29,361 bases of DNA, taken from the IMG/VR virus record IMGVR_UViG_3300039106_000085, positions 1-29,361 of that record. One strand, given 5' to 3'. Of this stretch, positions 5,708 through 24,650 are shown one piece after another; positions within the stretch are counted from its first letter, which is position 1; each line of letters begins with the position of its first letter. This DNA comes from a virus. The position numbers and the translations under genes are program-made. The notes below the pieces were generated by a model. The model made no database searches. It was not told the DNA's origin and was given only the letters and a program-made list of their open reading frames with translations.

Positions 5708-5722
5708 TGATGAGTTTATCAC
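5708..5722 (+). promoter_or_regulatory. 15-bp dispersed motif, copy 1 (overlapping divergent -10s)
   Basis: TGATGAGTTTATCAC. The plus strand can be read as an extended -10 (TGA-GTTTAT) with TTGGGC 17 bp before it, and the minus strand as TGT-GATAAA for the reverse gene. The ATG at 5726 begins four bases after it. 13 of 15 bases match the copy at 21266. Confidence 0.6.
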
Positions 5723-5725
5723 AAC

Positions 5726-6049
5726 ATGACTAGAAGACGCTGGATTCAAGACCGAAAAACGGGTGAGCTGATCGAGATCACCGACGACTACCAACCTGAG
5801 CTGCGCACCGACTCTGGCGCCCTGTGGGGCGACAGCAGCTACGCGGGCATGAAGGCGCCAGACGGCACTGACATCTCCTCGCGCACAAAGCATCGTGAGT
5901 ACATGAAGGCCAAGGGCCTCACAACGATGGACGATTTCACAGGATCTTGGGCGAAAGCCAAAGAAAGCCGCGAGCGGTACATGACCGAGGGCGGTTCATT
6001 TAAGCGTGCCGACATAGAGCGCGCAATTCATAAACTTCAAAACAGGTAA
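5726..6049 (+). CDS. Conserved phage head-region hypothetical protein
   Basis: 107 residues, basic and hydrophilic. The segments RTDSGALWGD, DGTDISSRTKHREYMK and GLTTMDDF are a pattern I know from uncharacterised proteins located between portal and scaffold in podovirus-like genomes. There is no clear ribosome binding site. The ATG lies 6 nt downstream of a possible -10 (GTTTAT, with TGA before it), which would put the transcript start at or next to the start codon, so leaderless translation is possible. A TTGGGC at 5691-5696 sits 17 nt before that -10. Function unknown. Confidence 0.8.
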   Translation: MTRRRWIQDRKTGELIEITDDYQPELRTDSGALWGDSSYAGMKAPDGTDISSRTKHREYMKAKGLTTMDDFTGSWAKAKESRERYMTEGGSFKRADIERAIHKLQNR

Positions 6050-6055
6050 TTCCCC

Positions 6056-7192
6056 ATGTCAGAACCCACGACAACCATGCGCGATGCCCTTGAGGCCGCG
6101 TTCGAAAAAGCAGACGAGCCGCTGAAAACAGTGCCAGCACCCGAGGCTGTATCGGCCCCGGACCTGGTCGAATCCAGCGAGCCCGTTGCAGCCTCCTCTG
6201 AGCCAGCAGCAGATCCCGCCGCATCGCAGGATTTGAATGCACTTTCCGAGGACAAGCCCGTTGATAGCGAGCTTGTTCAACAACCGGAAAGAGACGAGCA
6301 AGGAAAATTTAAGAAACCCGAGGGTGTGCAGGCTGGGCCTAAGTCCCAGCCGCGTCAGCCAGGTGAAAGGGCCCCCGCGTCCTGGCGCCCTGACATCCGC
6401 GAGCATTGGGGCACATTGCCCGAGCCTGTCCGCGCTGAAATCCAACGCCGCGAGACCGAGGTCGCACGCACGCTCCAGGAAACAGCCGAGGCTCGCAAGA
6501 CTGCCGAGGCCGTGATGAAGACCATCGAGCCTTACCAGGCATTCATCAAGGCCGAGAACAGCAACCCGCTGCAGGCGATCGACAACCTGATGGGCACGGC
6601 GGCGCGTTTGCGCACCGGCACGGCGCCCGAGCTCGCGCAGCTGGTGGCCGGCATCGTCAATCAGTTTGGCACTGGCCGCTTTGGCAATGGCTTCATCGAC
6701 ATGCTCGACAGCGCCCTGGCTGGCCAGACACCGCGCCAGGACCCGCAGCAGGTCGCGATGGAACAGGTGCTCAACCAGCGCCTGGCGCCGATGCAGAACA
6801 TGCTCACGCAGTTCCAGCAGGCCCAGTTTGCGCAGCAGCAGCAAGCCTCGCAGGCTGCTCAGACCGAGGTATCCACGTTCCTGGAACGTGCCGAGTTTGG
6901 CAACGACGTGCGCGAAGACATGGCCGACATCATCGAAGCAGCTCAACGACGTGGCCAGAACATGTCCTTGCAGGACGCTTACAAGAAGGCCTGCCTGATG
7001 AACGACAACGTGCGCTCTGTGATCTCCCAACGCGCCAAGGCCAGGGGCGCACAGCAAACAACCAGCGCAGCGCAGAAGGCCAGGTCGGTTGCCGTGCAGG
7101 TTTCTGGCTCCGCGCCAATGGGCGCCTTGAGGCAAGAAAGCACCGACGTGCGCTCTGCGATCGAGGCTGCCATCACGATGACCTCACGCTGA
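6056..7192 (+). CDS. Scaffold-like head assembly protein
   Basis: 378 residues, directly before the major capsid gene. The N-terminal 110 residues are acidic and Ala/Pro/Ser-rich (low complexity), followed by ASWRPDIREHWGTLPEPVRAEIQRRE, which is common in phage scaffold-like proteins, then long helices rich in Gln (QFQQAQFAQQQQASQAAQ). Scaffolds are typically elongated coiled proteins that guide capsid assembly and leave before maturation. The ribosome site is weak (CAGGT). The stop codon at 7190-7192 forms the left end of one of the four 15-bp motif copies. The scaffold role is inferred from position and composition. Confidence 0.75.
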   Translation: MSEPTTTMRDALEAAFEKADEPLKTVPAPEAVSAPDLVESSEPVAASSEPAADPAASQDLNALSEDKPVDSELVQQPERDEQGKFKKPEGVQAGPKSQPRQPGERAPASWRPDIREHWGTLPEPVRAEIQRRETEVARTLQETAEARKTAEAVMKTIEPYQAFIKAENSNPLQAIDNLMGTAARLRTGTAPELAQLVAGIVNQFGTGRFGNGFIDMLDSALAGQTPRQDPQQVAMEQVLNQRLAPMQNMLTQFQQAQFAQQQQASQAAQTEVSTFLERAEFGNDVREDMADIIEAAQRRGQNMSLQDAYKKACLMNDNVRSVISQRAKARGAQQTTSAAQKARSVAVQVSGSAPMGALRQESTDVRSAIEAAITMTSR

Positions 7193-7204
7193 TGCCATAA
7201 TCAC
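7190..7204 (+). promoter_or_regulatory. 15-bp dispersed motif, copy 2 (capsid upstream promoter)
   Basis: TGATGCCATAATCAC, beginning with the stop codon of the scaffold-like gene. It contains TGC-CATAAT, a good extended -10; no clear -35 is seen. It would drive the capsid transcript with a leader of about 170 nt. Confidence 0.6.
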
Positions 7205-7376
7205 ACCATGTCGAGAGCAATCTTGACTGGTGTGCCCAAGCACCCCAGCCACCGCATGATCCTAGGAGACGCCCTCGGTGTCCCACCTACGACGAAGTCG
7301 GACTGTGAAAGGTTCGCGTAGGCGCATCTGAAAAAGGTGAGCGCAAGCTCGTTTTAACTCAGATGAAGGAGTCATC
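7205..7376 (+). promoter_or_regulatory. Long 5' leader region of the capsid gene
   Basis: 172 nt without an assigned gene apart from a doubtful 37-codon ORF (7208-7321). It is GC-rich with short complementary stretches but no family of RNA that I recognise. A GAAGGAG ribosome site lies at its end. It may affect stability or translation of capsid mRNA. Confidence 0.4.
7208..7321 (+). CDS. Possible leaderless 37-residue ORF upstream of the capsid gene
   Basis: ATG at 7208 lies 6 nt after a CATAAT -10 (with TGC before it), so a transcript would start at or beside the start codon. The reading gives MSRAILTGVPKHPSHRMILG, continuing to a TAG at 7319-7321. There is no ribosome binding site and no recognised family. 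It could be a real short peptide, or simply part of a roughly 170-nt 5' leader of the capsid mRNA. Evidence is weak: the similar placement of the ATG after the same motif at 5726 is the only support. Confidence 0.3.
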   Translation: MSRAILTGVPKHPSHRMILGDALGVPPTTKSDCERFA

Positions 7377-8348
7377 ATGTCTTTTCCAAATGTAAGTGAC
7401 ATCGTCGCAACGACGATCCAGTCACGCACACGTCAGATCGCTGACAACGTTACTAAAAACAACGCCCTGTTGTCCCGTTTGAACACACGCGGCAACGTCA
7501 AAACCATCTCTGGTGGTAACACAATCTTTGAAGAACTTTCATTCGCTGAAAACGCGAACGGCGGTTTCTACTCAGGTTACGACTTGCTGCCCGTGGCTGC
7601 TCAAGACGTCATCTCTGCTGCTGAATTCCAAATCAAGCAGTACGCAGTGCCCGTCGTGATGTCTGGCCTCGAGATGTTGCAAAACAGCGGCAAAGAGCAA
7701 TTCATCGACTTGCTCGAAGCTCGCTTGAACGTGGCTGAATCCACGATGGTGAACCAGCTTGCTCAGTCCATCTACTCAGACGGCACTGGCTCTGGCGGTA
7801 AGGAAGTCACTGGCTTGAACGCCGCTGTGCCTGCCGATCCGACAACTGGCACTTACGGTGGCATCAACCGCGCAACTTGGACCTTCTGGCGCTCCAAGCT
7901 GTACGACTTCAGCGCTCAAAGCGTGACGCCCAGCGCGTCCACTATGCAGGCCGCGTTGAACTCTTTGTGGTCTTCTTTGGTTCGCGGTACTGATCGTCCT
8001 GACTTGATCGTCTTGGACAACAACTACTGGACTTACTACATGAGCAGCTTGCAGGCTCAGCAGCGTTTCACGTCTCCTGAGACTGGCAATTTGGGCTTCC
8101 CCACATTGAAGTTCATGGATGCTGACGTTGTTCTGGACGGCGGTATCGGCGGCTATTGCCCTGCCAACACCGGCTTCATGCTCAACAGCAAGTACATCAA
8201 GTGGCGCCCTCACAAGGACCGCAACATGGTTCCTTTGAGCCCCAACCGTCGCTATGCCATCAACCAGGACGCTGAAGTTCAGATCTTGGCTTGGGCCGGC
8301 AACCTGACCACCTCTGGTGCTCAGTTCCAAGGTCGTATCCAAAACTAA
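7377..8348 (+). CDS. Major capsid protein (HK97-fold type)
   Basis: 323 residues. It starts MSFPNVSDIVATTIQSRTRQ and contains NGGFYSGYDLLPVAAQDVISAAEFQIKQ-type sequence and a later GGIGGYCPANTGFMLNSKYIKW segment. This pattern is typical of major capsid proteins in podovirus-like and metagenomic phages, though no catalytic motif exists to confirm it. GAAGGAG sits at good spacing before the ATG. Codon use differs visibly from neighbours: leucine is often TTG and codons look tuned, which fits very high expression. It has its own promoter-like element at 7193-7201 and a strong terminator after it, so it can be made as an abundant separate transcript. The shell would assemble around the scaffold-like protein. 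Confidence 0.9.
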   Translation: MSFPNVSDIVATTIQSRTRQIADNVTKNNALLSRLNTRGNVKTISGGNTIFEELSFAENANGGFYSGYDLLPVAAQDVISAAEFQIKQYAVPVVMSGLEMLQNSGKEQFIDLLEARLNVAESTMVNQLAQSIYSDGTGSGGKEVTGLNAAVPADPTTGTYGGINRATWTFWRSKLYDFSAQSVTPSASTMQAALNSLWSSLVRGTDRPDLIVLDNNYWTYYMSSLQAQQRFTSPETGNLGFPTLKFMDADVVLDGGIGGYCPANTGFMLNSKYIKWRPHKDRNMVPLSPNRRYAINQDAEVQILAWAGNLTTSGAQFQGRIQN

Positions 8349-8362
8349 TTTGGTGGGCCGTC

Positions 8363-8416: not shown

Positions 8417-8433
8417 AACTAAAGGAAAAAATC

Positions 8434-8622: not shown

Positions 8623-8637
8623 AAAAAAGGTAAAGAG

Positions 8638-9252: not shown

Positions 9253-9265
9253 TTAGGAGTAGGGG

Positions 9266-10015
9266 ATGGCCTTTCAAATCGTTAACGAATCGACCCTCTC
9301 GGCCATCGTGCAGAACGTGGCCTCGATGGTGGCCTTCCCCGTCCCCAACGATCCCGCGGGTGATGCTGATCCCACGGTGCAGCAGTTCGTGCAGGCCGCC
9401 AACATGGCCGGCATTGAACTCCTGACCATGTACGACTGGCAGGAGCTCATCAAGAATTACCAGATCCCAATCACTGCAGACACCAACAACCAGAAGGAAA
9501 AGGCTTTTCCTCTGCCCGAGGACTTCTTTGATTGGATCGACCAGACCAACTGGAACGCGACAACGCAGTTCCCGTCCCTCGGCCCTGTGTCGCCACAGAT
9601 GTGGCAGCAGCTGCTGATCCGCACAACGCTGCCCACGCTGTCGTTCTACTGGCAGGTGCGCGACAACATGATCTACGTTTTGGCCCCGCCAAATTCGCCT
9701 CAGATCATGAACGTGTTCTACATGTCCCAGGCATGGGTGCGCGACCAGGATGATCCGACGCTGTACAAGAACCGCATCACCAAAAACGGTGACGTGGCTT
9801 TGCTCGATGCCACGCTGATCACGCTGTACACCCGCGTGAAGTGGCTTGAGATGAAGGGCCTGGACTCGAGCGCAGCGATGCGTGACTTCCAGCTCTCATT
9901 CGAAAACCGCAAGGGGGCAGCCAAAGGTGCGCCGGTCCTTTCAATGACCCGCGATTTCAGATTCCCCTACATCCAACCTCTGACGAACACGCCAGACACT
10001 GGATATGGAGTCTGA
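9266..10015 (+). CDS. Head-to-tail adaptor / connector-like protein
   Basis: 249 residues; TTAGGAG lies just upstream. The sequence is helical at the N-terminus (NMAGIELLTMYDWQELIK), then has PLPEDFFDWIDQTNWN, and a second helical region (RVKWLEMKGLDSSAAMRDFQLSFE). This layout resembles the adaptor ring proteins (T7 gp11 or P22 gp4-like roles) that join the portal to the tail in short-tailed phages. Neighbours support it: head genes to the left and the propeller-like tail protein immediately downstream (10018). The exact family is not proven by a diagnostic motif. Confidence 0.7.
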   Translation: MAFQIVNESTLSAIVQNVASMVAFPVPNDPAGDADPTVQQFVQAANMAGIELLTMYDWQELIKNYQIPITADTNNQKEKAFPLPEDFFDWIDQTNWNATTQFPSLGPVSPQMWQQLLIRTTLPTLSFYWQVRDNMIYVLAPPNSPQIMNVFYMSQAWVRDQDDPTLYKNRITKNGDVALLDATLITLYTRVKWLEMKGLDSSAAMRDFQLSFENRKGAAKGAPVLSMTRDFRFPYIQPLTNTPDTGYGV

Positions 10016-10017
10016 TC

Positions 10018-11613
10018 ATGCCATTGGTGCCTCTCAAGCCTTTCAAGACACCTAGAAGGGCGGCTGCCTCACAAGTTGCGCAGCTGCAAGTCATTCCCGC
10101 GCCAACTGGTGGCCTGAATTTCCGCGACCCGATCGCGGCCATGTCACCGATAGACGCGCTGGCGCTGACCAACTTCATTCCACGCCAGCAAGGCGTGGAG
10201 CTGCGCAAGGGCTGGTTCTCTTACACCGATTCCCTAGAAGTCCCGATTGAGTCGGTTTTTGGCTACAAGGCGCCCGTCAACGCTGACGACAAGCGCTTCA
10301 TTGCGGCCAACGGCAACATCTATGACGTAACTGACCCAGGTGCTCCTGTAGAGGTCGTGACGGGCACTGGAAGCGATGCAGACGAGTGGTGGACCACTCA
10401 GTTCTCCACGCCCGCGGACACGTTCCTGCTGGCCGTATCGCCTGGCGCTGGGTACTGGACTTACAGCACCGGCACAGGATGGGTTGACCGCACAGCGACA
10501 ACCACCGGCTTGCCCACAAACGTGCGCACCGTGGCTGTCTGGAAGCAGCGCGTCTGGTTCACCGCAGAAGGTGATTCGAACGTCTACTACCTAGACAACG
10601 TGGACGTCGTCACAGGCGGCTGCACATCCTTTGCGATGGGCTCAACCCTGCGCAATGGCGGCTACTGCTCCGCGCTAATCAATTGGACGATGGACGCCGG
10701 CTTCTCGATTGACGACTACCTAATCGTGGTCGGCACTGAGGGCGACATCGGCGTGTGGCAGGGCACAGACCCCACCAGCCCCGATACGTTCAGCCTGAAG
10801 GGCGTCTGGTACGTCGGCCCCGTGCCCAAGCACGGCACATTCTTCACCCCCTTTGGTGGTGACGTGATGATCGTCAGCGAGCTGGGCCTGGTTCCTATGT
10901 CCAAGCTGGTCAATGGCCAGTACACCGAAGACCAGCAGATCGGCCCCGCGTCCAAGATCCAGTCGGTCTTTGCGCCCCTGGTGCGCAAGCTGATTAACGA
11001 AAAGTATTTCGACGTTTTTGTCGTCCCGTCTTCCGACGTGATGGTGATCAAGCTGCCGGCTGACGGTGGAACGTATCGCCAGTTCGCGATGAACGTGATC
11101 ACAGGCGCCTGGTGTCAGTTTGTTGGCATTCCAATGCGTTGCGCCGGAATTATTGGTGGCCGCCTGTTGTTTGGAACGATTGACGGCTATGTCTGCGAAG
11201 GCCTGACTGGCGACAAGGATGGCGCTGACGGCAACGGCGACGGCGGCAACTATGTCGAGGGCGACGTGCAGACGTCCTTCCAGGCGTTTAACACGCCCGC
11301 GCAGCTCAAGAAGTTCGGCATGGTGCGGCCATCGTTCATCGCATTGGCAGCGCCGGCCATCAAGCTGCAGATCAACACGCAGTTCCAAGTAAGCAATGTT
11401 GGTGGCTCTCCGTTCTTTACGAGAGACAGCGGCGCCGTGTGGGATGAGGGTGTCTGGAACACATCCAGCTGGGTGGGAACGAACACCTACCAGGCGTGGG
11501 CCGGCACGACTGGTCTTGGGTATTACGGCTCGCTGCGCATGAAGGTGCGCGGCCTGCCACAAACTGTCTTCACTTCATGCAATGTGATGACTGAACTTGG
11601 TGGAGTGATGTGA
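10018..11613 (+). CDS. Beta-propeller-like tail (nozzle/hub) protein
   Basis: 531 residues, starting 2 nt after the previous stop with GGAG upstream. Residues 30-330 are beta-rich repeats, each ending in patterns such as RFIAANGNIYDVTDPG, KQRVWFTAEGDSNVYYLDNVD, DYLIVVGTEGDIGVWQGTDP and DVMIVSELGLVPMSK. This is the character of the propeller proteins that form the tubular tail below the adaptor in podoviruses (T7 gp12-like). The C-terminal 170 residues are a separate beta domain. The adaptor-then-propeller order is the expected tail order. The fold and role are inferred; no enzyme motif is seen. Confidence 0.75.
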   Translation: MPLVPLKPFKTPRRAAASQVAQLQVIPAPTGGLNFRDPIAAMSPIDALALTNFIPRQQGVELRKGWFSYTDSLEVPIESVFGYKAPVNADDKRFIAANGNIYDVTDPGAPVEVVTGTGSDADEWWTTQFSTPADTFLLAVSPGAGYWTYSTGTGWVDRTATTTGLPTNVRTVAVWKQRVWFTAEGDSNVYYLDNVDVVTGGCTSFAMGSTLRNGGYCSALINWTMDAGFSIDDYLIVVGTEGDIGVWQGTDPTSPDTFSLKGVWYVGPVPKHGTFFTPFGGDVMIVSELGLVPMSKLVNGQYTEDQQIGPASKIQSVFAPLVRKLINEKYFDVFVVPSSDVMVIKLPADGGTYRQFAMNVITGAWCQFVGIPMRCAGIIGGRLLFGTIDGYVCEGLTGDKDGADGNGDGGNYVEGDVQTSFQAFNTPAQLKKFGMVRPSFIALAAPAIKLQINTQFQVSNVGGSPFFTRDSGAVWDEGVWNTSSWVGTNTYQAWAGTTGLGYYGSLRMKVRGLPQTVFTSCNVMTELGGVM

Positions 11614-12755
11614 TGGCTTTAAAAGACAACTACGGGTTGCCCGATTCAACTTTGCAGCTAATTGGCAGCTCGCCCGATCTCAACTTTGGTGCGGCACGAA
11701 ATGACCTTGGCTTGACTAGCTTGATCAGCGCCCTGCGCGGTGAGCGCTCGAGCAACAACCCTGGCGTCCGACTGTTGGCCAACCGTGCGAACGGCGCTGG
11801 CATCACGTTCAATCGCAAGCCAACAGCAGGCTCAAATCGCTTTCCGATTTTGACAATGCCAAAAGGATCTCGCTCTGAAGTGACGTTGCCGGGAGCTGAG
11901 ACAACGCCGCCATATGTTCCCCCGTATGTCCCGCCGTATGTTCCTCCGTTTTTCCCGCCGGTCGTCGATGACGACGTTGTGGATGATGATGTGATTGACG
12001 ACGACGTGGTTGATGACGACGTGGTTGATGACGACGTTATCGATGACGATGTCGTTGATGACGATGTCGTTGATGACGACGTTATCGATGACGATGTCGT
12101 TGATGACGATGTCGTTGATGACGTTATCGATGACGATGTCGTTGATGACGATGTCGTTGATGACGTTATCGATGACACCGTTGTTGACGACGATACAGAG
12201 GACACCGATGACACGGTCGACGACGACTTCAACCTAGACCTTGACACTGATCTGCTCGACCAGCTTGTCTATCCAGACGACAAAGAAAAAACGGGAACAG
12301 TGGACATCGAGGTTGTCGATCCCAATGAGGAATCTCCTCAAGACGATGGCACTACAGGCGACATCTTGGATTTGATCAATTCTGGCCTACCTGGTGATCA
12401 AGATGATTTTATGCAGGACGACGGCACGACAGACGGCATTCAAGACATCATCGACAGCATGAGCGGCGGTTCAGGCGGCTCCGATGGTGGAGACGACTAC
12501 GCAGACTCCGACTTTGGATATGACTTTGGCGGCGGCACAAATGGCGGCGGCAAATACTTTGATGACCAAAGCGCTGCAACGATGGCATTTGCCAAAGGCG
12601 GCAAGGTCACGCCAGATCGCCTGGCAGGGCCCAACCCTGTTGGACCTGATGACGGCTACGCAGCTCTCAAGAACGGCGAATTCGTTTTGAATAAAGACGC
12701 AGCAAAGGCAATCGGATACGAATTGCTGCAACGGCTTAACAGGATTCGGCCTTGA
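11613..12755 (+). CDS. Virion-associated protein with Pro-Tyr and Val-Asp repeats
   Basis: 380 residues from the ATG at 11613; a GTG at 11610 is an alternative, and both overlap the previous stop. An N-terminal 90 residues is followed by three PPYV repeats, then a very acidic stretch of VVDDD/VIDDD repeats (about residues 120-200), another acidic region, a Gly-rich segment, and a C-terminal domain with DDGYAALKNGEFVLNKDAAK. This last motif (Gly-Asp-Asp, ALxxGEFVLN) recurs at the ends of many phage structural proteins. The acidic array may bind cations or act as a flexible spacer. The array is also a DNA-level tandem repeat and may vary in copy number. Function unknown. Confidence 0.8.
   Translation: MALKDNYGLPDSTLQLIGSSPDLNFGAARNDLGLTSLISALRGERSSNNPGVRLLANRANGAGITFNRKPTAGSNRFPILTMPKGSRSEVTLPGAETTPPYVPPYVPPYVPPFFPPVVDDDVVDDDVIDDDVVDDDVVDDDVIDDDVVDDDVVDDDVIDDDVVDDDVVDDVIDDDVVDDDVVDDVIDDTVVDDDTEDTDDTVDDDFNLDLDTDLLDQLVYPDDKEKTGTVDIEVVDPNEESPQDDGTTGDILDLINSGLPGDQDDFMQDDGTTDGIQDIIDSMSGGSGGSDGGDDYADSDFGYDFGGGTNGGGKYFDDQSAATMAFAKGGKVTPDRLAGPNPVGPDDGYAALKNGEFVLNKDAAKAIGYELLQRLNRIRP
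12036..12170 (+). repeat. In-frame tandem repeat, 45/42/42 bp units
   Basis: Units begin GTTATCGATGACGATGTCG at 12036, 12081, 12123 and (partial) 12165. The first unit is 45 bp; the next two are 42 bp and differ by the loss of one GAC codon. All changes keep the reading frame, giving VIDDDVVDDDVVDD units. Less regular copies extend upstream to about 11965. Confidence 0.9.
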
Positions 12756-13192
12756 AAATCGTTACTGATCAGCCCGATCAGTATCCGGTCATCTGGCAAT
12801 GGATGAACCGGAATACAAATTTGCCGTGGAGCAGCGATCTCAGAACGATCGCTGCCATGCGCGATGACGGCACAATCGCATCAGCGGTTGCATTCAACGC
12901 GTGGACAGAAAATGCTTGCTGGATGCACGTTGCGTTTGACGGCAAGCATGGTTTGACTCGAGCACTTTGGCGTGCGGCTTTTGAGTATCCGTTCCTGCAC
13001 TGCGGGAAGGATGCGGTCTACGGCCTTACACCAAAGCACTTGACTGAGGCTTTGAGCATGAACCGGAAACTGGGATTTAGACAGATCGCGGAAACGGTTG
13101 ACTGTGTGATGTTTGAAATGCGGCGTGATGAATGTCGCTGGATAAAGGAGAAAGAACATGGGCGGGAAATCATCAGCACCAGCAGCGCCTGA
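12752..13192 (+). CDS. GNAT-like acetyltransferase family protein
   Basis: 146 residues from a TTG at 12752 that overlaps the previous stop (TTGA) and follows AACAGGA. The layout is GNAT-like: a strand of TIASAVAFNAWTENACWMHVAFDGKHG, a helix (LTRALWRAAFEYPF), then GLTPKHLTEALSMNRKLGFRQIAETVDCVMFEM. The last part is the usual GNAT ending, where NRKLGF precedes the final strands. The acetyl-CoA loop is not clearly canonical. Similar short GNAT-like proteins occur among podovirus tail genes, and their substrate is unknown. It overlaps the next gene by 35 nt in another frame, which suggests tight coupling. Confidence 0.7.
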   Translation: MKIVTDQPDQYPVIWQWMNRNTNLPWSSDLRTIAAMRDDGTIASAVAFNAWTENACWMHVAFDGKHGLTRALWRAAFEYPFLHCGKDAVYGLTPKHLTEALSMNRKLGFRQIAETVDCVMFEMRRDECRWIKEKEHGREIISTSSA

Positions 13193-14450
13193 TTACCTCG
13201 GCGCGGCAACCGCACAAGCGGCGGCATCCGAGAAGGCTACAACGGCGCAGAACTTTGCGAACCGTCCCACGATCAACACGCCGTGGGGAACGCAGAGCTG
13301 GGGAACGGATTCGTCCGTTGATCCAGCGACTGGCCAGAACGTCACGACGTGGACTCAGAACACATCGCTGGCGCCTGGCCTGCAGTCGGCTCTCGATTCG
13401 CAGATCGGTCTACAGAACGACCGCAGCCAGCTGGCTGGCGGATTCATGGATCGCGTGGCCGATGAGTACAGCAAGCCATTCGACTACGCCAATCTGCCTC
13501 AGATGGCACAGGTGAATGCACCTGGCAGTCTTCAGACTTCGACCAACGATTACTCCAAAGGCTTGGCGACTGGCTTCAACTTTGGCTCTCCTTTGCCCCA
13601 GTTTGATTCGTCCTACCGCGACACGGTGGCCAATCAGCTCATGCAGAAGATGCAGCCCGCGCATGACTACCAGCAGCGCCAGCTCGAAACAAAGCTTTCC
13701 AATATGGGTTTCCGCCCAGGCACAGAAGGCTACGACCGCGAGCTGAACAACATGGCTCAGCGTCAGTCTGCAGAGCGCTACAACGCTTTGGACACAGCTG
13801 GAAACGAAGCTCAGCGCCTGTACAACATGCAGATGGGCACTGCGCAGCAGGGCTACCAGCAGAACCTGGGCGCGGCTCAATTCCAGAACCAAGCACTGGG
13901 CCAGGCCAACGCGTTGGATCTTGCAAACATGGGCGCGTCAAACAACGCGATGTCTCAGCAGTTTGGTTTGAACACGCAGTACGCCAACGCACAGAACCAA
14001 CTGCGCCAGCAAGCGATTGCAGAGGAAATGCAGCGCCGCGGTATGTCTCTGAACGAGATGAACGCGTTGCTGTCTGGCCAGCAAGTGAACATGCCAAACA
14101 TGCCTTCATTCAACACGGCCACCAAGTCAGAGACGCCCAACATCCTGGGCGCGACTCAGATGGGCTACGACGCACAGCTGGGTGCAACCAACGCGCAAAA
14201 CGCTGCCTTTGGCAACTTGCTTGGCGCTGGCGCACAGCTTGGATCTGCCGCGTTCATGTTCTCCGATCGTCGCTTGAAGTCAAATATCAAGCGCGTCGGC
14301 ACTCACGCGATTGGCGTGGGAATTTATGACTACACAATGATGGGAATGCCGCAACGCGGTGTGATTGCCCAAGAAGTTGAAGCGGTGCGACCTGACCTCG
14401 TCAAGCGTCACGCCAGTGGCTACCTGATGGTGAATTACGGAGGTTTGTGA
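13158..14450 (+). CDS. Tail-associated protein with C-terminal S74-type chaperone motif
   Basis: 430 residues after AAAGGAGA, starting inside the previous gene. The body is Gln/Asn/Ala-rich and helical (many QRLYNMQMG, NALGQANALD-type stretches). The last 62 residues begin S369-DRRLKSNIKRVG and end GVIAQEVEAVRPDLV...YLMVNYGGL. This is the signature of the peptidase S74 / intramolecular chaperone domain, where self-cleavage occurs just before the Ser of SDxRLK after trimer assembly. The domain is shorter than the usual 100 or more residues, so cleavage may be lost. The helical body looks more like an internal or needle-type protein than a fibre. Role uncertain. Confidence 0.75.
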   Translation: MGGKSSAPAAPDYLGAATAQAAASEKATTAQNFANRPTINTPWGTQSWGTDSSVDPATGQNVTTWTQNTSLAPGLQSALDSQIGLQNDRSQLAGGFMDRVADEYSKPFDYANLPQMAQVNAPGSLQTSTNDYSKGLATGFNFGSPLPQFDSSYRDTVANQLMQKMQPAHDYQQRQLETKLSNMGFRPGTEGYDRELNNMAQRQSAERYNALDTAGNEAQRLYNMQMGTAQQGYQQNLGAAQFQNQALGQANALDLANMGASNNAMSQQFGLNTQYANAQNQLRQQAIAEEMQRRGMSLNEMNALLSGQQVNMPNMPSFNTATKSETPNILGATQMGYDAQLGATNAQNAAFGNLLGAGAQLGSAAFMFSDRRLKSNIKRVGTHAIGVGIYDYTMMGMPQRGVIAQEVEAVRPDLVKRHASGYLMVNYGGL

Positions 14451-17912: not shown

Positions 17913-20900
17913 ATGCCACGCAATAGTTCAGGCGTTTACACGCTACCCGGAGGAAACCCCGTCACCCCTGGTGACGTGATCGAGGCCGAATGGGCCAACA
18001 CGACCCTGGAGGACGTGGCAAACGAGCTGACGAACTCCCTCTCTCGCACGGGCGCTGGCGGCATGCTGGCGCCTTTCCGTATTGCTGACGGCTCTGTTAG
18101 CGGCCCTGGCCTGTCCTACTTAAACGAGACCAACACCGGCCTCTATCGCTCTGGCTCTGGCTCTACCTGGATGTCTGTCCTAGGCGTCAACACGGCCCAA
18201 TTCTCAACTGTCGGCCTGACCATTCCTTTCGGTAAGGCCCTCACTGCGGTGGGCAACGCCTCAGTCGGCGGCACGTTTGCCGTTGGTGGTGCGACTACCC
18301 TGGCCTCAACTTTGGCCGTGACTGGTGCTCTTACCGCAACGGGTGGCGTTTCTGGCAACGTCACAGGCAACGTGACGGCTGGCTCTGGCACATCGACGTT
18401 CAACGACGTCGTGATTACCGGAGCGCTGGACATGACTGCCGGCAGCTCCGCGACCATCACTGGTCTCAGCACCCCAACAAACGCAAGCGACGCAGCCAAC
18501 AAGGGCTACGTTGACGCGCAGGACGCGCTTCGCCTGGCTCTGACAGGCGGCACGATGTCTGGCGCCATTGCAATGGGCTCTAGCAAGATCACAGGCCTGG
18601 CCACTCCAACGGCTGACCAGGACGCGGCCACAAAGGCCTACGTTGACAGCGTTGCCCAGGGCCTCGATGTCAAGGGCTCCTGCCGCGCTGCGACGGTTGC
18701 AAACATCACCCTGTCAGGCGCTCAGACGATTGACGGCGTGGCCGTGATCGCAGGCGATCGCGTGCTGGTCAAGGATCAATCGACAGCAGCCAACAACGGC
18801 ATCTACGTTGTGGCTGCAGGCAGCTGGACGCGTTCAACTGACGCTGACACATGGGCTGAGCTGGTCGGCGCGTTTACGTTTGTCGAAGACGGCACAGTCA
18901 ACGACAACACCGGCTGGGTCTGCACATCTGCACCAGGTGGGACATTGGGCGTCACAGCTGTGACGTTTGAGCAGTTCTCTGGCGCTGGCCAAGTGATTGC
19001 CGGCACGGGCATGAGCAAAACCGGCAACACGCTCAACGTGAACACCGCCTCAAGCTCGCGCATCGTCGTCGGCTCAGACGAGATCGACCTGGCCACTACC
19101 GGCGTGACTGCATCGACTTACAAGTCGGTCACTGTTGACCAGTGGGGCCGCGTGACTGCCGGCACAAACCCAACGACCTTGGCCGGCTTTGGCATCACTG
19201 ACGCCTACACACAGGCCCAAGTTGACGCTGCTTTGGCGCTCAAGCTGAACTTGACCGGCGGCACGATGTCGGGCGCCATCGCAATGGGCACAAACAAGAT
19301 CACCGGCCTCGGTGATCCTACGCTGGCCCAGGACGCTGCGACCAAGAACTACATCGACACGATCTTTGGATCGACGACGACAGCTGCTGCGTCTGCAGCT
19401 GCTGCGGCGTCCTCTGCGTCAGCTGCTGCAACATCTGCGACAAATGCGGCGTCGAGCGCTACGGCTGCTGCTGGCTCTGCCACTTCTGCCGCGAGCTCAT
19501 ACACCACGTTCAACAACCAGTACCTGGGCAGCAAGGCTTCTGATCCTTCTACCAACAACACTGGGGGCGCGTTGGTGGCCGGCAACCTGTACTGGAACAG
19601 CACCGCGTCCGAGATGCGCGTCTACACAGGTTCTGCCTGGTTGACTGCATACCTGCCTGCGACGGGTTACCTTGCTCTGTCTGGTGGAACGATGACCGGC
19701 GCCATCGCGATGGGCACCAACAAGATCACTGGTCTTGGAACGCCATCGGCAAGCACCGACGCGGCCACAAAGGGCTACATCGACACCGCGCTGGGCTCAT
19801 ACCTGACAAGCGCAACGGCTGCTGCAACATATCAAACCATCTCTGGCATGTCGTCTTATGCCGCGCTGGCCTCTGCCAACACGTTCACAACCAACCAGAT
19901 CATCAGCGCCAACACCTCGAGCGCGGCTCTGAGCATCACTCAGGCAGGCTCTGGCAATGCGCTGTACATCGAGGACGTGGCAGCCGACGCAACGCCGTTT
20001 GTGGTGTCTTCGACTGGTGCTGTCGGCATCGGAACGACCACACCTGACAACGTGACGTCAGCCGGTATCGCGTTGGTCTCCAATGACGGTTACTACCCAC
20101 AGATTGTTAACCGCAACAAGACCAACGACCCCAACGCGTCTTATGTCGTGTTTGATAAGGACCGCGCTGGGGCAATCGTTCAAAGCGGCGACGCCCTTGG
20201 GGCCATCGTTTGGCGCTCGTTTGACGGCACAAGCTATTTGCAGTCCTCCGGGATCATCGGTTACTCGGACGGCACTCCAGGCACAAACGATGTGCCAGGT
20301 CGCTTGTCGTTCCTAACTACTGCTGACGGCGCTGCTGCACCGACTGAGCGCCTTCGCATTTCAAACACCGGCGCGTTTGGTTTGAGCGGCGCGAACTACG
20401 GTACATCCGGTCAAGTCCTGACATCTGGTGGCTCAGGTGCTGCGCCATCTTGGTCTACGCCTTCTAGTGGCGCCATGGTTTTGCTTAGTACTACTACTGC
20501 AAGCGGTGCGGCCTCTGCTTCTATACCAATAGGTTCTTACAGCGGTACGTATAGCCAATACAGAATTGTTTGTAATAATTTTTACACTAGTACGTCTAAT
20601 ATTATTCCAGCAATACGAGTTGCAACACCAACAACCCCAATAACTAGCGGGTATAACTCGGGTGGTTATGCACCAAACACTTCAAATCAATATGTAAATA
20701 GGCTAAATACTAGTTATTTCTATTTAACAACAGACGTAGTTGGCTCTGTTCTTACTGGTTCTTTAATTATTGATATTACACAACCACCAGCTGGGCAATA
20801 TGGTGTGGGAATTTTTGCCAGCGCAACATTTGATTATGGCTCTGATGGAGTGAACATGACGACGGCAAATTATGCTGGTGGTATTGGTGTGAACGGATCA

Positions 20901-20993
20901 TCCAACTTGTCTATACTTATTGTAGATCGAGGCGGTACTGGTGCATCAACTTGGTTGAACGGAACATTTAAACTTTACGGCATAAAAGCATAA
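17913..20993 (+). CDS. Tail fibre protein
   Basis: 1026 residues after AGGAGAGG. An N-terminal anchor-like segment (GVYTLPGGNPVTPGDVIEAE) is followed by beta-rich repeats, including three 36-residue units of the form LTGGTMSGAIAMG..KITGL..PT...DAATK.Y.D (at 18540, 19251, 19677) and a partial unit before them. A low-complexity Ala/Ser stretch near 490-535 may be a flexible joint. From about 20480 the DNA becomes AT-rich and the protein changes to a Ser/Thr/Asn/Tyr-rich tip ending in WLNGTFKLYGIKA, typical of phage receptor-binding tips. It would bind the host surface. The tip has probably been replaced by recombination. Confidence 0.9.
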   Translation: MPRNSSGVYTLPGGNPVTPGDVIEAEWANTTLEDVANELTNSLSRTGAGGMLAPFRIADGSVSGPGLSYLNETNTGLYRSGSGSTWMSVLGVNTAQFSTVGLTIPFGKALTAVGNASVGGTFAVGGATTLASTLAVTGALTATGGVSGNVTGNVTAGSGTSTFNDVVITGALDMTAGSSATITGLSTPTNASDAANKGYVDAQDALRLALTGGTMSGAIAMGSSKITGLATPTADQDAATKAYVDSVAQGLDVKGSCRAATVANITLSGAQTIDGVAVIAGDRVLVKDQSTAANNGIYVVAAGSWTRSTDADTWAELVGAFTFVEDGTVNDNTGWVCTSAPGGTLGVTAVTFEQFSGAGQVIAGTGMSKTGNTLNVNTASSSRIVVGSDEIDLATTGVTASTYKSVTVDQWGRVTAGTNPTTLAGFGITDAYTQAQVDAALALKLNLTGGTMSGAIAMGTNKITGLGDPTLAQDAATKNYIDTIFGSTTTAAASAAAAASSASAAATSATNAASSATAAAGSATSAASSYTTFNNQYLGSKASDPSTNNTGGALVAGNLYWNSTASEMRVYTGSAWLTAYLPATGYLALSGGTMTGAIAMGTNKITGLGTPSASTDAATKGYIDTALGSYLTSATAAATYQTISGMSSYAALASANTFTTNQIISANTSSAALSITQAGSGNALYIEDVAADATPFVVSSTGAVGIGTTTPDNVTSAGIALVSNDGYYPQIVNRNKTNDPNASYVVFDKDRAGAIVQSGDALGAIVWRSFDGTSYLQSSGIIGYSDGTPGTNDVPGRLSFLTTADGAAAPTERLRISNTGAFGLSGANYGTSGQVLTSGGSGAAPSWSTPSSGAMVLLSTTTASGAASASIPIGSYSGTYSQYRIVCNNFYTSTSNIIPAIRVATPTTPITSGYNSGGYAPNTSNQYVNRLNTSYFYLTTDVVGSVLTGSLIIDITQPPAGQYGVGIFASATFDYGSDGVNMTTANYAGGIGVNGSSNLSILIVDRGGTGASTWLNGTFKLYGIKA
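18540..18647 (+). repeat. 108-bp coding repeat, copy 1 of tail fibre
   Basis: Encodes the first full 36-residue LTGGTMSGAIAMG unit. A partial unit (TGLSTPTNASDAANKGYVDA) precedes it at about 18462. Confidence 0.8.
19251..19358 (+). repeat. 108-bp coding repeat, copy 2 of tail fibre
   Basis: Second 36-residue unit, same frame and length as the copies at 18540 and 19677. Nucleotide identity is high in the first half (GGCACGATGTC, GGCGCCAT). Confidence 0.8.
19677..19784 (+). repeat. 108-bp coding repeat, copy 3 of tail fibre
   Basis: Third unit; closest to copy 2 (shares ATGGGCAC.AACAAGATCAC). Such repeats could recombine and change fibre length. Confidence 0.8.
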
Positions 20994-21130: not shown

Positions 21131-21268
21131 TATGACCGCGCAGCGGAATACCCACCCATCACCGACTACATTGACGGCTTGGTAAAGGGCGACCAAGCAC
21201 AGGTGCAGGCATACATCGATGCGTGCCTTGCGGTGAAAGCTAAGTACCCAAAGCCGTCGCAAACGTGA
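21002..21268 (+). CDS. Putative tail fibre assembly chaperone
   Basis: 88 residues after ATAAGGAG, 8 nt behind the fibre gene. The N-terminal half (ATPEGQVPYTEEEMAAWKT) is AT-rich in its DNA. The C-terminal half (RAAEYPPITDYIDGLVKGDQAQVQAYIDACLAVKAKYP) is GC-rich and contains the YPPITDYIDGLVKGD pattern common to small proteins after phage fibre genes (XkdW-like or Tfa-like in role). The gene looks like a hybrid produced at a recombination joint near 21130. Its stop codon begins one copy of the 15-bp motif. Confidence 0.65.
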   Translation: MTILYKATPEGQVPYTEEEMAAWKTTLFDEAEQLKELAKRQYQYDRAAEYPPITDYIDGLVKGDQAQVQAYIDACLAVKAKYPKPSQT

Positions 21269-21280
21269 TGAGATAATCAC
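21266..21280 (+). promoter_or_regulatory. 15-bp dispersed motif, copy 3 (lysis cassette promoter)
   Basis: TGATGAGATAATCAC, starting at the stop codon of the fibre chaperone gene and, with the preceding G, giving the palindrome ends GTGAT-N6-ATCAC. TGA-GATAAT is an extended -10; no good -35. The lysis genes begin 48 nt downstream. Confidence 0.6.
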
Positions 21281-21327
21281 GCCGCGATACTAAAAAAGTA
21301 ACCCACGACAACCACTGAAAGAATCAA

Positions 21328-21504
21328 ATGGAAATTTCAATTCAACTCGAGCTGAACGAAGTCAACGCGGTACTGGACGCGATCGGGGCATTACCGACTA
21401 GCACCAACACATGGCCCATTGCGGCCAAGATCCGCGCACAGGCAGAGGTCCAGCTCCCAAGGAATGAAGAAGGGGCGGGCGATGAAGGAAGTACCACTGA
21501 CTGA
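21328..21504 (+). CDS. Small conserved phage protein (58 aa)
   Basis: ATG at 21328-21330; no strong ribosome site (GAAAGAATCAA upstream). The protein starts MEISIQLELNEVNAVLDAIG, then has ALPTSTNTWPIAAKIRAQAE and a polar tail. The NEVNAVLDAIGALPT...A.KI..QAE pattern is one I recognise from many small phage proteins of unknown function, usually near lysis or fibre genes. It is the first gene after the promoter-like motif at 21266-21280 and overlaps the next gene by 23 nt. Confidence 0.7.
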   Translation: MEISIQLELNEVNAVLDAIGALPTSTNTWPIAAKIRAQAEVQLPRNEEGAGDEGSTTD

Positions 21505-21667: not shown

Positions 21668-21672
21668 TCAGC

Positions 21673-21774: not shown

Positions 21775-22268
21775 TTGATCCGATCAGCGCCCTGGAGGGG
21801 CTACAAAAAGCCATTGGCATGGTCAAGAAGGCCAGCAAGGTCGCCAATGACCTGGCTGGCTTGGCGCCGATGATCGGCAAGATGTTTGACGCCAAGAGCG
21901 TGGCCACCAAAGCCATGATCGAGGCAAAGAGATCCGGCAACAAATCCAACCTTGGCACAGCCCTTCAGATCGAGATGGCCTTGGACGAGGCCAAGCGATT
22001 TGAAGCAGAGCTGATGCTGTTGTTTCAAGCAACGGGCCGCGCCGACGTCTGGGCAAAGATCAAGCAGCGCCAGGCGCAAATGGACGCAGACGACGCGCAT
22101 GAGGCACGCAAGCTCAAGGCCGAAGAAAAGAAACGCAAAGAAAAAGAGCAGGAGCAGCTCGAGATGGGGCTGCTGATCGGCGGCATTTTTCTGGTCTTGT
22201 TTCTCGTGTTTGTCGGCGTCAATGAGCTGATGGACTTCTGCGCAACCACTCACCGCTGCGGGCGATGA
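21771..22268 (+). CDS. Coiled-coil protein with C-terminal membrane span
   Basis: 165 residues from a GTG at 21771 with GGAGG upstream. A longer in-frame reading back to 21639 would run through two other genes and is rejected. The sequence is helical throughout: IDPISALEGLQKAIGMVKKA at the N-terminus, a charged coiled coil (about 105-135, ARKLKAEEKKRKEKEQEQ), then a membrane span (GLLIGGIFLVLFLVFVGV) and a short tail with two Cys. Topology is tail-anchored. Similar proteins occur near lysis genes of podovirus-like phages, with no known function. A spanin role seems unlikely because inner-membrane spanins carry their anchor at the N-terminus. Confidence 0.75.
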   Translation: MIDPISALEGLQKAIGMVKKASKVANDLAGLAPMIGKMFDAKSVATKAMIEAKRSGNKSNLGTALQIEMALDEAKRFEAELMLLFQATGRADVWAKIKQRQAQMDADDAHEARKLKAEEKKRKEKEQEQLEMGLLIGGIFLVLFLVFVGVNELMDFCATTHRCGR

Positions 22269-22414
22269 ATGAGTACCAAAAGCAATTCAACCTGTTCTGC
22301 AAAATCATTTGCTACGGCTGGGCTGCCTGGTGGTTCTTAGGTTTCTTGAGGTTCCTGCCTGACGACCTGTCAAACAGGATTGTGAATTTGCTACTTGGAA
22401 AGATTGGACTTTAA
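22265..22414 (+). CDS. 49-residue membrane-associated protein
   Basis: ATG at 22265 overlaps the previous stop (ATGA). The product (MNEYQKQFNLFCKIICYGWA, continuing AWWFLGFLRFLPDDLSNR) has one aromatic-rich hydrophobic span and a basic, amphipathic end. No family is recognised. Translational coupling and its place between a membrane protein and the holin support a real gene in the lysis cassette. Confidence 0.6.
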   Translation: MNEYQKQFNLFCKIICYGWAAWWFLGFLRFLPDDLSNRIVNLLLGKIGL

Positions 22415-22416
22415 AA

Positions 22417-22920
22417 ATGCTGTCTCTGTTTTCAACCCTCGGTGGCCTGCTGATCTCAGGCCTTCCCAAGCTCCTGGACTTCTTCCAAAACAAAGCGGAC
22501 CAGAAGCATGAGCTGGCGCTAGCCAGGGTACAGACAGAGCGCGAGCTCGAGCTGGCGGCCAAGGGCTTTGCAGCGCAGCAGAAGGTCGAGGAGATCCGCA
22601 CCGATCAGATCGCCATGCAGACCGACGCGCAGATGACAGTGGCCGCGTATGACCACGACAAGAAGGTCCTGGAGCGAGCCAGCACCTGGGTCGTCAATTT
22701 TGTGGGCACTGTGCGGCCTGTCGTGACCTACATCTTCGTGCTCGAGCTCTGCGCGATCAACGCCTGGATCGCGTTCTACATCTACGAGCACCCAAACCTG
22801 ATCGGCAGCATTGACGACCTGATCCGCGCCTCGGACATCATCTTCAGCAGCGATGAGATGGCCATGCTGGGCGGGATCATCGGCTTCTGGTTCGGCTCAC
22901 GCAGCTGGAGCAAGAAGTGA
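22417..22920 (+). CDS. Holin, 3-TM gene-transfer-agent type
   Basis: 167 residues. A hydrophobic N-terminus (LFSTLGGLLISGLPKLLDFF) precedes a charged coiled coil (residues 28-85), then a span (VRPVVTYIFVLELCAINAWI), and a final hydrophobic segment ending GGIIGFWFGSRSWSKK. The RPVVTY and IIGFWFGSR motifs match the holin family described for gene transfer agents (GTA_holin_3TM). It would form membrane lesions that release the lysozyme to the cell wall. Its stop overlaps the lysozyme start (GTGA), as expected for a holin-endolysin pair. Confidence 0.85.
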   Translation: MLSLFSTLGGLLISGLPKLLDFFQNKADQKHELALARVQTERELELAAKGFAAQQKVEEIRTDQIAMQTDAQMTVAAYDHDKKVLERASTWVVNFVGTVRPVVTYIFVLELCAINAWIAFYIYEHPNLIGSIDDLIRASDIIFSSDEMAMLGGIIGFWFGSRSWSKK

Positions 22921-23444
22921 AGTTGAGCAAGGCCGGTGCAGATCTCATGCACCAGTACGAGGGCTGCAGAAACCGGCCCTACCTATGCCCCGCGCACATC
23001 TGGACGATCGGCTGGGGGCATGTGCTCTACCAGGAGCAGATCAGGCTGCCAATGGTGCGCGTGAAGGAAATTCACAGCCCAATGATCCGCAAGGAATACC
23101 CACTGAGACCGGAGGACAGTCGTGTTTGGAGTCAGCAAGAGATCGATGCGCTATTCGCAAGCGACATCGCTAGTTTTGAGCGCGGTGTTCTACGACTTGC
23201 TCCCAATCTGGATGGCAACCAAGGCGCTTTCGACGCGTGTACCAGCTTTGCGTTCAATGCCGGGCTGGGAAACTTTCAGCGTTCCACTATTCGGATGAAG
23301 ATCGGGCGCCAGGACTGGGAGGGCGCCGCGGAGGCCTTCATGCAGTGGACCAGGGGAGGCGGCAAAGAATTGCCGGGCCTGGTCAAACGGCGCAAGGCAG
23401 AGAAGGCTTTGTTCCTCAGCGCGCTGGAAACTGAGGACAAATGA
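22917..23444 (+). CDS. Endolysin, GH24 lysozyme (T4 lysozyme-like)
   Basis: 175 residues from a GTG with GGAG upstream. It cleaves the glycan chains of peptidoglycan at the end of infection. The catalytic segment is YEGCRNRPYLCPAHIWTIGW: E15 is the catalytic Glu, T30 matches T26 of T4 lysozyme, and the position of T4 Asp20 is Cys24. T4 lysozyme with Cys at that place is known to stay active, so this is likely a working variant. Later motifs (DACTSFAFNAGLGNF, WTRGGGKELPGLVKRR) are typical of the family. No signal peptide or SAR segment is visible, so export should depend on the holin. Confidence 0.93.
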   Translation: MKLSKAGADLMHQYEGCRNRPYLCPAHIWTIGWGHVLYQEQIRLPMVRVKEIHSPMIRKEYPLRPEDSRVWSQQEIDALFASDIASFERGVLRLAPNLDGNQGAFDACTSFAFNAGLGNFQRSTIRMKIGRQDWEGAAEAFMQWTRGGGKELPGLVKRRKAEKALFLSALETEDK

Positions 23445-23445
23445 C

Positions 23446-23455
23446 TGTGCCAAAA
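23446..23455 (+). repeat. Candidate integrase arm site, left copy
   Basis: TGTGCCAAAA, repeated exactly at 23628-23637 on the other side of the attP core. Shorter TGTGCC copies lie at 23457, 23470 and 23497. Direct repeats flanking a core are typical of arm-type integrase binding sites. Assignment is by pattern only. Confidence 0.5.
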
Positions 23456-23497
23456 TTGTGCCGCGGACTTGTGCCGTAGACAGTTGCCATTACCTCT

Positions 23498-23526
23498 GTG
23501 CCCTGAGAAATCAGGGCACTTTTTTG
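23498..23526 (+). terminator. Intrinsic terminator after the lysis cassette
   Basis: GTGCCCTGA (23498-23506), GAAA tetraloop, TCAGGGCAC (23511-23519), then TTTTTTG. The 9-bp stem is perfect and the tetraloop is of the stable GNRA class. It would end the rightward late transcript before attP. Confidence 0.93.
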
Positions 23527-23535
23527 TCCGGTCGC

Positions 23536-23580
23536 ACTGCAAATCCGCGTACGCCGGTTCGATTCCGACCCCCGCCTCCA
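23536..23580 (+). other. attP: attP core, copy of the tRNA-Cys(GCA) 3' half
   Basis: The 45 bp runs from the anticodon loop (CTGCAAA, anticodon GCA at 23539-23541) through the 3' anticodon stem, the T loop TTCGATT, a 3' acceptor strand CCCCGCC, discriminator T and CCA. No matching 5' half is present: the bases before it do not pair with TCCGC. This is the classical attP core that rebuilds the tRNA on integration. The T stem reads GCCGG/CCGAC with one C-A mismatch. It lies 66 bp from the integrase stop. Phage genes on both sides indicate the unintegrated form. Confidence 0.88.
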
Positions 23581-23627
23581 AAGAAATCAAAGAGATACAG
23601 AGCTTCCCGCCCCGCTCGAAATCAGAA

Positions 23628-23637
23628 TGTGCCAAAA
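23628..23637 (+). repeat. Candidate integrase arm site, right copy
   Basis: Exact second copy of TGTGCCAAAA, between the attP core and the integrase 3' end, 182 bp from the left copy and in the same orientation. Confidence 0.5.
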
Positions 23638-23645
23638 ACGTGACA

Positions 23646-24602
23646 TTAGAAGGTCACCTTTTCGGCAGCCGCGGCCAGGTGCTCAGGCGACAGGTGCGCG
23701 TACTTGCGGACCATCTCAGCGGAGTGCCAGCCGCCCAGTTCCTGGAGCACTGACATCGGCGTGCCGGCCATCGCGTGCCAGCTGGCCCAGGTGTGGCGCA
23801 GGTCATGGAAGCGACACCAGGGCACGCCAGCGCGTTTTGTAGCGTTCGCCCAGGTAGTGGGGGAGATCCGCACAGGGCATTGAAATACAAGGCCTTCACG
23901 GGGCTCTGGGAAGGCCGCCAGGAGCTCACGCGCCTGCTTGTTAAGCGGGACCAGGATGCGCTCGCCGGCCTTCGCCTCGTCCGCATGCACGATCACCATG
24001 CCCGTCTCCAGGTTCACGTTCTCCCAGCGCAGGCCAAAGACATTGGCTTTTCTCAACCCGGTGAGCAAAGCGAAACGGACCGGACACCGGTACTTTACCG
24101 GGAGGTTTGCGATCACGGCCTCAGCCTGTTCGCGTGTCAAATATGCGACGCGACGGGTAGGCTCCTCCTCCTTGCGAAAGCCTGGGATGGTGTCGATCCA
24201 CTGCCAGTCGATCTGGGCAGCGCGGAAAATGGCGCGGATCAGGGCGCGGTAGCGGTTCCTGGTGGCCGGCTTGACGCCCTCGGGCATGGCCTCCTCGATC
24301 AGGTCGCGATCGATCTCGGTGAGCAGCTTGCTGCCCAGCTTTGGCTTGAGAAAGAGGATCTTGTCCTCGTCGTCAGAGATGGAGCGCTTGCCGGCCTTCT
24401 CGATCTTCCACTTGTCGGTGGCGTCGTTCCAGGTCTTCTTGGGCTTCTCCTTGAGGGCGCCTGACCGCCAGAGCTCGGCACGACGGATGTCGTGGAGCTC
24501 CTGGGCCTGCTTCTTGTCGGACGTCTTGAGCGACTCGCGCACGCGCTTGCCGTTGATCATGACGTCGATCCAGTAGGTGTCGCCGCGTAGTTTGATTGCC
24601 AT
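23646..24602 (-). CDS. int: Tyrosine recombinase integrase
   Basis: 318 residues from the ATG at 24602, which has GAGG 6 nt upstream; an in-frame TTG at 24671 lies within the -35 of its own promoter and is rejected. An N-terminal arm-binding type domain (MAIKLRGDTYWIDVMINGKR) is followed by a SAM-like core-binding region and the catalytic domain. The active-site set is complete: R184 (TGLRKANVFGLRW), a Lys in the ADEAKAGERI hairpin, H266 and R269 (HDLRH), H293 (GWHSAE) and Y301 (KYAHL). It catalyses integration at the adjacent attP, by context into tRNA-Cys. No excisionase is recognised in the window. Confidence 0.96.
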   Translation of the reverse strand: MAIKLRGDTYWIDVMINGKRVRESLKTSDKKQAQELHDIRRAELWRSGALKEKPKKTWNDATDKWKIEKAGKRSISDDEDKILFLKPKLGSKLLTEIDRDLIEEAMPEGVKPATRNRYRALIRAIFRAAQIDWQWIDTIPGFRKEEEPTRRVAYLTREQAEAVIANLPVKYRCPVRFALLTGLRKANVFGLRWENVNLETGMVIVHADEAKAGERILVPLNKQARELLAAFPEPREGLVFQCPVRISPTTWANATKRAGVPWCRFHDLRHTWASWHAMAGTPMSVLQELGGWHSAEMVRKYAHLSPEHLAAAAEKVTF

Positions 24603-24635
24603 GTGTTGCCTCGTTCCTAGTTCGTGTTTCGTGGT

Positions 24636-24650
24636 TGGTGAGATTATCGC
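24636..24650 (+). promoter_or_regulatory. 15-bp dispersed motif, copy 4 (over Pint)
   Basis: TGGTGAGATTATCGC, 12 of 15 matches to copy 3, in plus orientation although int is read on the minus strand. It covers the -10 of Pint. The six bases after it (AACATC) also resemble those after copy 1 (AACATG). Confidence 0.6.

Follow-up and report, generated by a model that had tools for sequence, protein, structure and literature searches.

Symmetric dyads in the window

The analyzed DNA is IMG/VR record IMGVR_UViG_3300039106_000085 (29,361 nt, hereafter the window), an incomplete 29-kb fragment of a phage genome with no megablast match among cultured phages. It carries genes for a major capsid protein, a lysis region, and a tyrosine integrase (int), and a family of short symmetric DNA elements accompanies them (Table 1). 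The original prediction, made from this sequence alone, described four copies of a near-palindromic 15-bp motif at gene boundaries. All four 15-mers are present, at positions 5708, 7190, 21266, and 24636 (sites 1 to 4), and the repetition is real: TGATGAGATAATCAC with at most three mismatches has five matches in the window, the four sites and the minus-strand reading of site 4, versus 0.51 ± 0.70 in shuffled sequences, and 0 of 100 shuffles reach five.

The proposed symmetry holds, but the unit is 19 bp rather than 15 bp. The likeness among the sites runs to position 19, and the symmetric unit reads TGnTG-N9-CAnCA (approximately YGNTGCGAtwaTCGCANCR). The similarity previously noticed just downstream of the motif is the second half-site of this dyad, whereas the literal arrangement GTGAT-N6-ATCAC occurs only at site 3. 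A CRP site (TGTGA-N6-TCACA) was rejected as an identity for the dyads, its spacing being wrong.

To avoid circularity, the sites were scored with a matrix whose training set excluded the window and all homologues of window sites; the scores are those of Table 1. With this matrix the window contains seven sites above 16 bits versus 0.06 in shuffles, and the reversed matrix finds none above 12 bits. The count of four was incomplete, as further copies lie at 45, 28506, 14338, and 18323 (all above 15 bits), with a weaker possible site at 24059. A looser pattern, YGNTGNGNNWNNCNCANCR, had a high background and was not relied on, and a simple promoter scan of the 1–20 kb region gave fewer matches than shuffles and was uninformative.

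Table 1. Dyads and associated features of the window (scores from the leave-homologues-out matrix)
Feature	Coordinates	Strand	Description
Dyad TGATGAGGAAACCGCAACA	45..63		20.6 bits; end overlaps the DUF3310 start codon (gene 63-407)
Small accessory gene	5477..5680	-	67 amino acids (aa), MKNQVVIV..., moron-like, predicted to be served by site 1; tblastn homologues in 11 relatives
Site 1, dyad TGATGAGTTTATCACAACA	5708..5726		22.8 bits; predicted promoter/operator of the minus-strand gene 5477-5680
Site 2, dyad TGATGCCATAATCACACCA	7190..7208	+	17.9 bits; over extended -10 TG-c-CATAAT (hexamer 7196-7201), predicted capsid promoter
Structured leader RNA of the capsid transcript	7208..7376	+	about 170 nt; predicted start at 7208
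Major capsid gene	7377..8348	+	phrog_9953 major head protein, E = 2.6e-115
Intragenic dyad TGATGGGAATGCCGCAACG	14338..14356		17.0 bits; in gene 13158-14450
Intragenic dyad TGGTGCTCTTACCGCAACG	18323..18341		15.9 bits; in tail gene 17913-20993
Site 3, dyad TGATGAGATAATCACGCCG	21266..21284	+	16.1 bits; over extended -10 TG-a-GATAAT (hexamer 21272-21277)
Tyrosine integrase gene (int)	23646..24602	-	Phage_integrase, PF00589, E = 1.2e-23
Weak intragenic dyad, possible site	24059..24077		14.3 bits; in int
Site 4, dyad TGTTGCGATAATCTCACCA	24636..24654	-	25.3 bits; over the predicted int promoter
Dyad GATTGTGAAATTCGCATCA	28506..28524		17.6 bits; 33 bp before the Sak4-like gene 27727-28473 (-)

The dyad family in related phages

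IMG/VR was scanned with the capsid protein, yielding 80 loci, and with the integrase, yielding another 80, and the DNA preceding orthologous genes was read. Allowing one mismatch, TGnTGnnnnAATnnCAnCA occurs about 148 times in 25 full records, versus about 10 for the reversed pattern, and a matrix iterated on these sites turned self-symmetric unprompted. Across 26 genomes there are 254 sites above 14 bits versus 7.4 in shuffles. Each of the 25 related records contains 7–13 such sites (21 in one 71-kb record), and 115 of the 254 fall in the 5.5% of DNA that is non-coding, a density 14-fold higher than in coding DNA. Relatives in the capsid gene that have other immunity, BUCT555 (Stenotrophomonas) and Mx8 (Myxococcus), have 0 sites above 14 bits.

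The intragenic members of the family number 156 versus 23 in synonymous-codon shuffles, an excess of about 7 times that is suggestive only, since orthologous copies are not independent. The dyad at 14338 recurs in most relatives, where its conservation may be partly driven by the protein, and relatives also have dyads in the tail gene. The dyad at 28506 is found in the same place in three relatives (G005, G006, and G009).

Predicted promoters beneath the dyads

Each of the four sites holds an extended -10 element (TG-n-hexamer), as originally proposed, and we predict all four to be extended -10 promoters overlaid by a symmetric operator. Orthologous sites precede the capsid gene, the lysis region, and int in the relatives, in agreement with the earlier assignment of sites 2, 3, and 4, and site 1 is conserved as well. 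Judging from this orthologous upstream DNA, sites 1 and 4 would act on the minus strand and sites 2 and 3 on the plus strand.

The promoter predicted at site 4 combines a -35 element TTGCTT (24671–24666), a 17-bp spacer, and a -10 element GATAAT (24648–24643), all on the minus strand. Many relatives have TTGACA-16/17-TGTTGnGAnAATCTCAnCA before int, and in one of them (L100) the dyad TGTTGCGACAATCGCAACA is perfect. At site 2 the dyad core TG-N9-CA and the -10 element are kept in 39 aligned relatives; the relatives have TGATGnnATAATCACACCA and variants of it before the capsid gene. Both site 2 and site 3 start on the TGA that terminates the gene upstream. At site 2 in the relatives this stop may be TGA, TAA, or TAG, but the extended -10 keeps its TG. 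Downstream of site 3 lies the lysis region, from a 58-aa gene at 21328 to lysozyme at 22917, and orthologous sites TGATGCGATAATCGCnnCA precede the homologous lysis-region gene in at least 13 relatives.

Site 1 had been assigned both to the reverse gene 5477–5680 and to the gene for a 107-aa head protein; the former assignment stands, and the latter does not. Relatives with the small minus-strand gene have the dyad between that gene and the 107-aa gene, while relatives lacking it mostly have no dyad before the 107-aa gene. Moreover, the best extended -10 and Shine-Dalgarno sequence are on the minus strand: the orthologues read TGTTGCTATAATCTCAACAGGAGG..ATG in this orientation, and one example, TGTTGCTATAATCTCAACAGGAGGCAGACATG, has a Shine-Dalgarno sequence after a textbook extended -10. 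For both reasons a promoter of the 107-aa gene, with a leaderless start at its ATG, is rejected. A plus-strand frame of 72 aa (5492–5710) that ends at site 1 appears spurious because it overlaps the minus-strand gene.

An explanation of these similarities that involves no repressor is a pure promoter family, in which the sites resemble each other as host sigma-70 extended -10 promoters (TGnTATAAT), often placed on the upstream stop codon, and the palindrome is accidental. The TG-n-[GATAAT-like] element shared by all four sites, the overlap of sites 2 and 3 with TGA stops, and the -35 elements at int agree with it. However, the first TG and the CAnCA half are conserved although they lie outside the sigma-70 consensus, and the matrix converged to symmetry. 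In addition, many sites, such as those at 45 and 14338, have no -10 element (only 45 of the 156 intragenic sites match it in at least 4 of 6 positions), and unrelated phages with promoters have no dyad. Such an origin of the family is very unlikely.

A lambda-CI-type repressor as the probable ligand

The window contains no repressor gene, and that of this phage is placed outside the incomplete record, the relatives being about 36 kb in length. Its likely counterpart is provided by relatives. The immunity region of G005 is lambda-like, with a 193-aa repressor gene (phrog_4, 3.8e-8) divergent from an 80-aa Cro-like gene with a helix-turn-helix (HTH) domain, and two dyads 31 bp apart lie between them. 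The repressor matches HTH_3 at the gathering score and combines an HTH with a lambda-CI-like C-terminal domain. Its AlphaFold2 model has a predicted local distance difference test score (pLDDT) of 88.8, and the best PDB folds are lambda repressor (3bdn, 7jvt, and 2ho0).

Homologues of this CI-like protein are encoded in 24 of 25 relatives; none was found on any plasmid. A dyad above 13 bits is located shortly upstream of 21 of the 25 cI copies, versus 8.7% of all genes within 100 bp. Two CI-bearing records outside the training set, G026 and G041, also have a dyad 43–64 bp before cI. The recognition-helix region DPAAVSLMLRG is nearly invariant among the CI homologues, which fits a conserved operator.

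The present data show the family of dyads, its enrichment and locations, and its association with cI, as well as the CI-like fold. We interpret the dyads as operators of the phage's own lambda-CI-type repressor, perhaps shared with the divergent Cro-like protein, with a probability of about 85%. Thus, the earlier suggestion of a phage-wide operator or promoter family bound by a dimeric repressor gains support from the 7–13 symmetric sites per genome and from their presence at the cI copies.

Several observations weigh against this interpretation. Over half of all sites are intragenic, beyond the reach of simple promoter blocking, despite the density of dyads in non-coding DNA. Site 2 does not reach the strength of sites 1 and 4, and the orthologues of site 3 have an imperfect 3' half. 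One clade (G003, G004, G007, and G019) has no good dyad directly upstream of cI; in G004 a dyad lies directly downstream of it. G013 (L285, L286) has eight dyads and a Cro-like gene and no recognizable CI homologue. Finally, CI binding, repression, and a road-block function are steps that we infer from sequence and predicted structure.

The case of G013 also bears on the possibility that the Cro-like protein, acting in lytic growth, is the main binder instead of CI, since the 80-aa HTH protein is encoded beside cI in nearly all relatives and is recognizable in G013, where CI is not. Yet its HTH match is weak, and it is the conserved recognition helix of CI that parallels the conserved operator. 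A leading role of Cro is very unlikely; it would not be exclusive in any case, because the CI and Cro proteins of a phage commonly use the same operators.

The least probable explanation is that phages have recruited a host regulator, such as a global HTH protein, and that the dyads are its operators. The regulator is indeed not encoded in the window, and a shared environment could mean related hosts. However, dyads are found in the cI-cro region of most genomes, they occur with a shifted consensus in Burkholderia and Erwinia phages with a distant CI, and they are lacking in the Stenotrophomonas and Myxococcus capsid relatives with other immunity.

Under control by the phage's own repressor, an HTH dimer would grip each 19-bp dyad on two successive major grooves. 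Because the promoter dyads are centered on the extended -10, repressor and RNA polymerase would be mutually exclusive there. In the lysogen, one protein would then directly silence the cI/cro switch, int, the Sak4 operon, the accessory gene, the capsid transcript, and the lysis region. Intragenic sites might block elongation, and upon induction all repressed genes would be freed together.

Cultured counterparts

The closest cultured repressors belong to Bcep22-like Burkholderia phages and to Erwinia, Serratia, and other phages. In two Bcep22-like phages (Lessievirus), JC1 and BcepMigl, the CI homologues are 36–38% identical, and related dyads TGGTTCGATWATCGAACCA occur 8 and 12 times, respectively, per 50 kb, versus fewer than 1 in shuffles. 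Nineteen of these 20 dyads are intergenic, including those between cI and cro. A dyad precedes the major capsid gene in JC1 (28584) and, in a weaker form, in BcepMigl (30258). Dyads also occur upstream of the DarB-like gene in the two phages and, in BcepMigl, upstream of the small terminase gene. Burkholderia and Erwinia phages whose CI is distant still have the dyads, though with a shifted consensus.

Thus, the Bcep22-like phages share with the phages analyzed here a related CI and related dyads at cI-cro, the capsid gene, and other genes, but differ in a shifted half-site and in the almost exclusively intergenic location of the sites. They provide a second instance of this arrangement that is largely independent of the first. 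Operators are not mentioned in the papers on JC1 and CSP3; the original Bcep22/BcepIL02 paper lay outside this comparison, and we make no claim of priority. As cultured Burkholderia phages show the arrangement too, they allow an immediate test of direct CI control over capsid and other late genes.

Comparison with known repressor systems

The phages described here resemble lambda, with its CI/Cro system and operators OL and OR, in several respects: their repressor pairs an HTH with a lambda-CI-like C-terminal domain, cI and the Cro-like gene are divergent and separated by predicted symmetric operators, and such operators overlap with predicted promoters. In lambda, the operators are confined to two early clusters and the late genes are silenced indirectly. 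Here, in contrast, single sites are distributed genome-wide, on int, capsid, lysis, and accessory promoters and in genes, and the units are 19 bp instead of 17 bp. Dispersed symmetric repressor sites are also a feature of phiC31, where they are the conserved inverted repeats, but the repressor there is an actinophage one; a literature search gave nothing on this system.

Two other systems use many sites for one repressor. The stoperators of L5 and other Cluster A mycobacteriophages are 13-bp, asymmetric, monomer-bound sites oriented with transcription, 20–30 per genome (PMC9283540, PMC6550527), and have been proposed to stop elongation (PMC9283540). The dyads resemble them in being spread over the genome, in promoters and elsewhere, but are symmetric rather than asymmetric and oriented with transcription, are fewer (7–13 per genome), and belong with an unrelated repressor architecture. 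Phage P1 has 22 dispersed operators for one repressor, C1; these are 17 bp long and asymmetric, and extra C1 sites titrated the repressor (PMC8546580). The dispersal is shared, while the sites described here are symmetric and the repressor is lambda-CI-like. By analogy, the intragenic dyads may stop elongation as suggested for L5, or titrate the repressor as in P1.

We rate a broader, tentative model somewhat below even odds. A lambda-CI-type dimer would serve as a genome-wide silencer through about ten single symmetric operators, at late and lysogenic promoters and in genes, blocking both initiation and elongation. Uncultured and cultured Bcep22-like phages would have this arrangement in common, with drifting half-sites, and it would extend to direct repression of a capsid promoter whose transcript begins with a structured leader RNA of a new class. 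On the CI interpretation itself, a lambda-type repressor would use dispersed operators, a strategy for which P1 and actinophages are the best-known examples. The regulon proposed for this large group of uncultured temperate phages was derived from sequence alone and is testable.

The capsid leader RNA

Site 2 also led to an undescribed structured RNA before the capsid gene. The leader, about 170 nt long, is conserved in one clade of capsid relatives. Its covariation among 39 sequences is 0.297, versus 0.128 ± 0.009 in shuffled and 0.06–0.11 in slid alignments, and 92.3% of cells pair. Two-sided changes in the first hairpin are found in the pairs from 7208 onwards but in only a single cell for the pairs 5' of 7208, which places the probable transcript start at about 7208. 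The CACACC half of site 2 was considered as part of an RNA hairpin, but its pairs are almost without two-sided changes, and we read it as an operator half for this reason.

The leader (7208–7376) has no Rfam match up to E = 1 in the window, and Rfam gave none for it in the relatives either. A covariance model built for it finds, among the sequences searched, only the DNA before the capsid gene of the same clade. The leader is possibly a new RNA class that may control capsid expression. False Rfam matches, to miRNA models, arise at 12.0–12.2 kb, where a low-complexity repeat (11940–12210) encodes DDVVDDD-type stretches of gene 11610–12755.

Other capsid relatives are organized differently. In ten loci (L034, L035, L040, L042, L053, L056, L062, L065, L073, and L075) the 200 bp before the capsid gene contain a different leader with variable hairpins, part of which is similar to the 3'-terminal portion of an HNH endonuclease gene. 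Such a gene occupies the same pre-capsid place in L007, L055, and L063. In L007, the interval from capsid promoter to capsid gene contains an HNH homing-type endonuclease gene (9369–10001), which seems to stand in place of most of the leader RNA, and the model match is only 26 bits. In BUCT555 (L314, 30900–31160), a consensus promoter TTGACA-17-TAGAAT precedes the capsid gene, and a different inverted repeat, ACACGGCC..GGCCGTGT, lies in the spacer.

Another enriched word, AACCCACGAC, is observed at or near gene starts, in the window at 6065, 8644, and 21302 on the plus strand and at 28506 on the minus strand. The form ACCCACGAC occurs 121 times in the 26 genomes versus 7 in shuffles.

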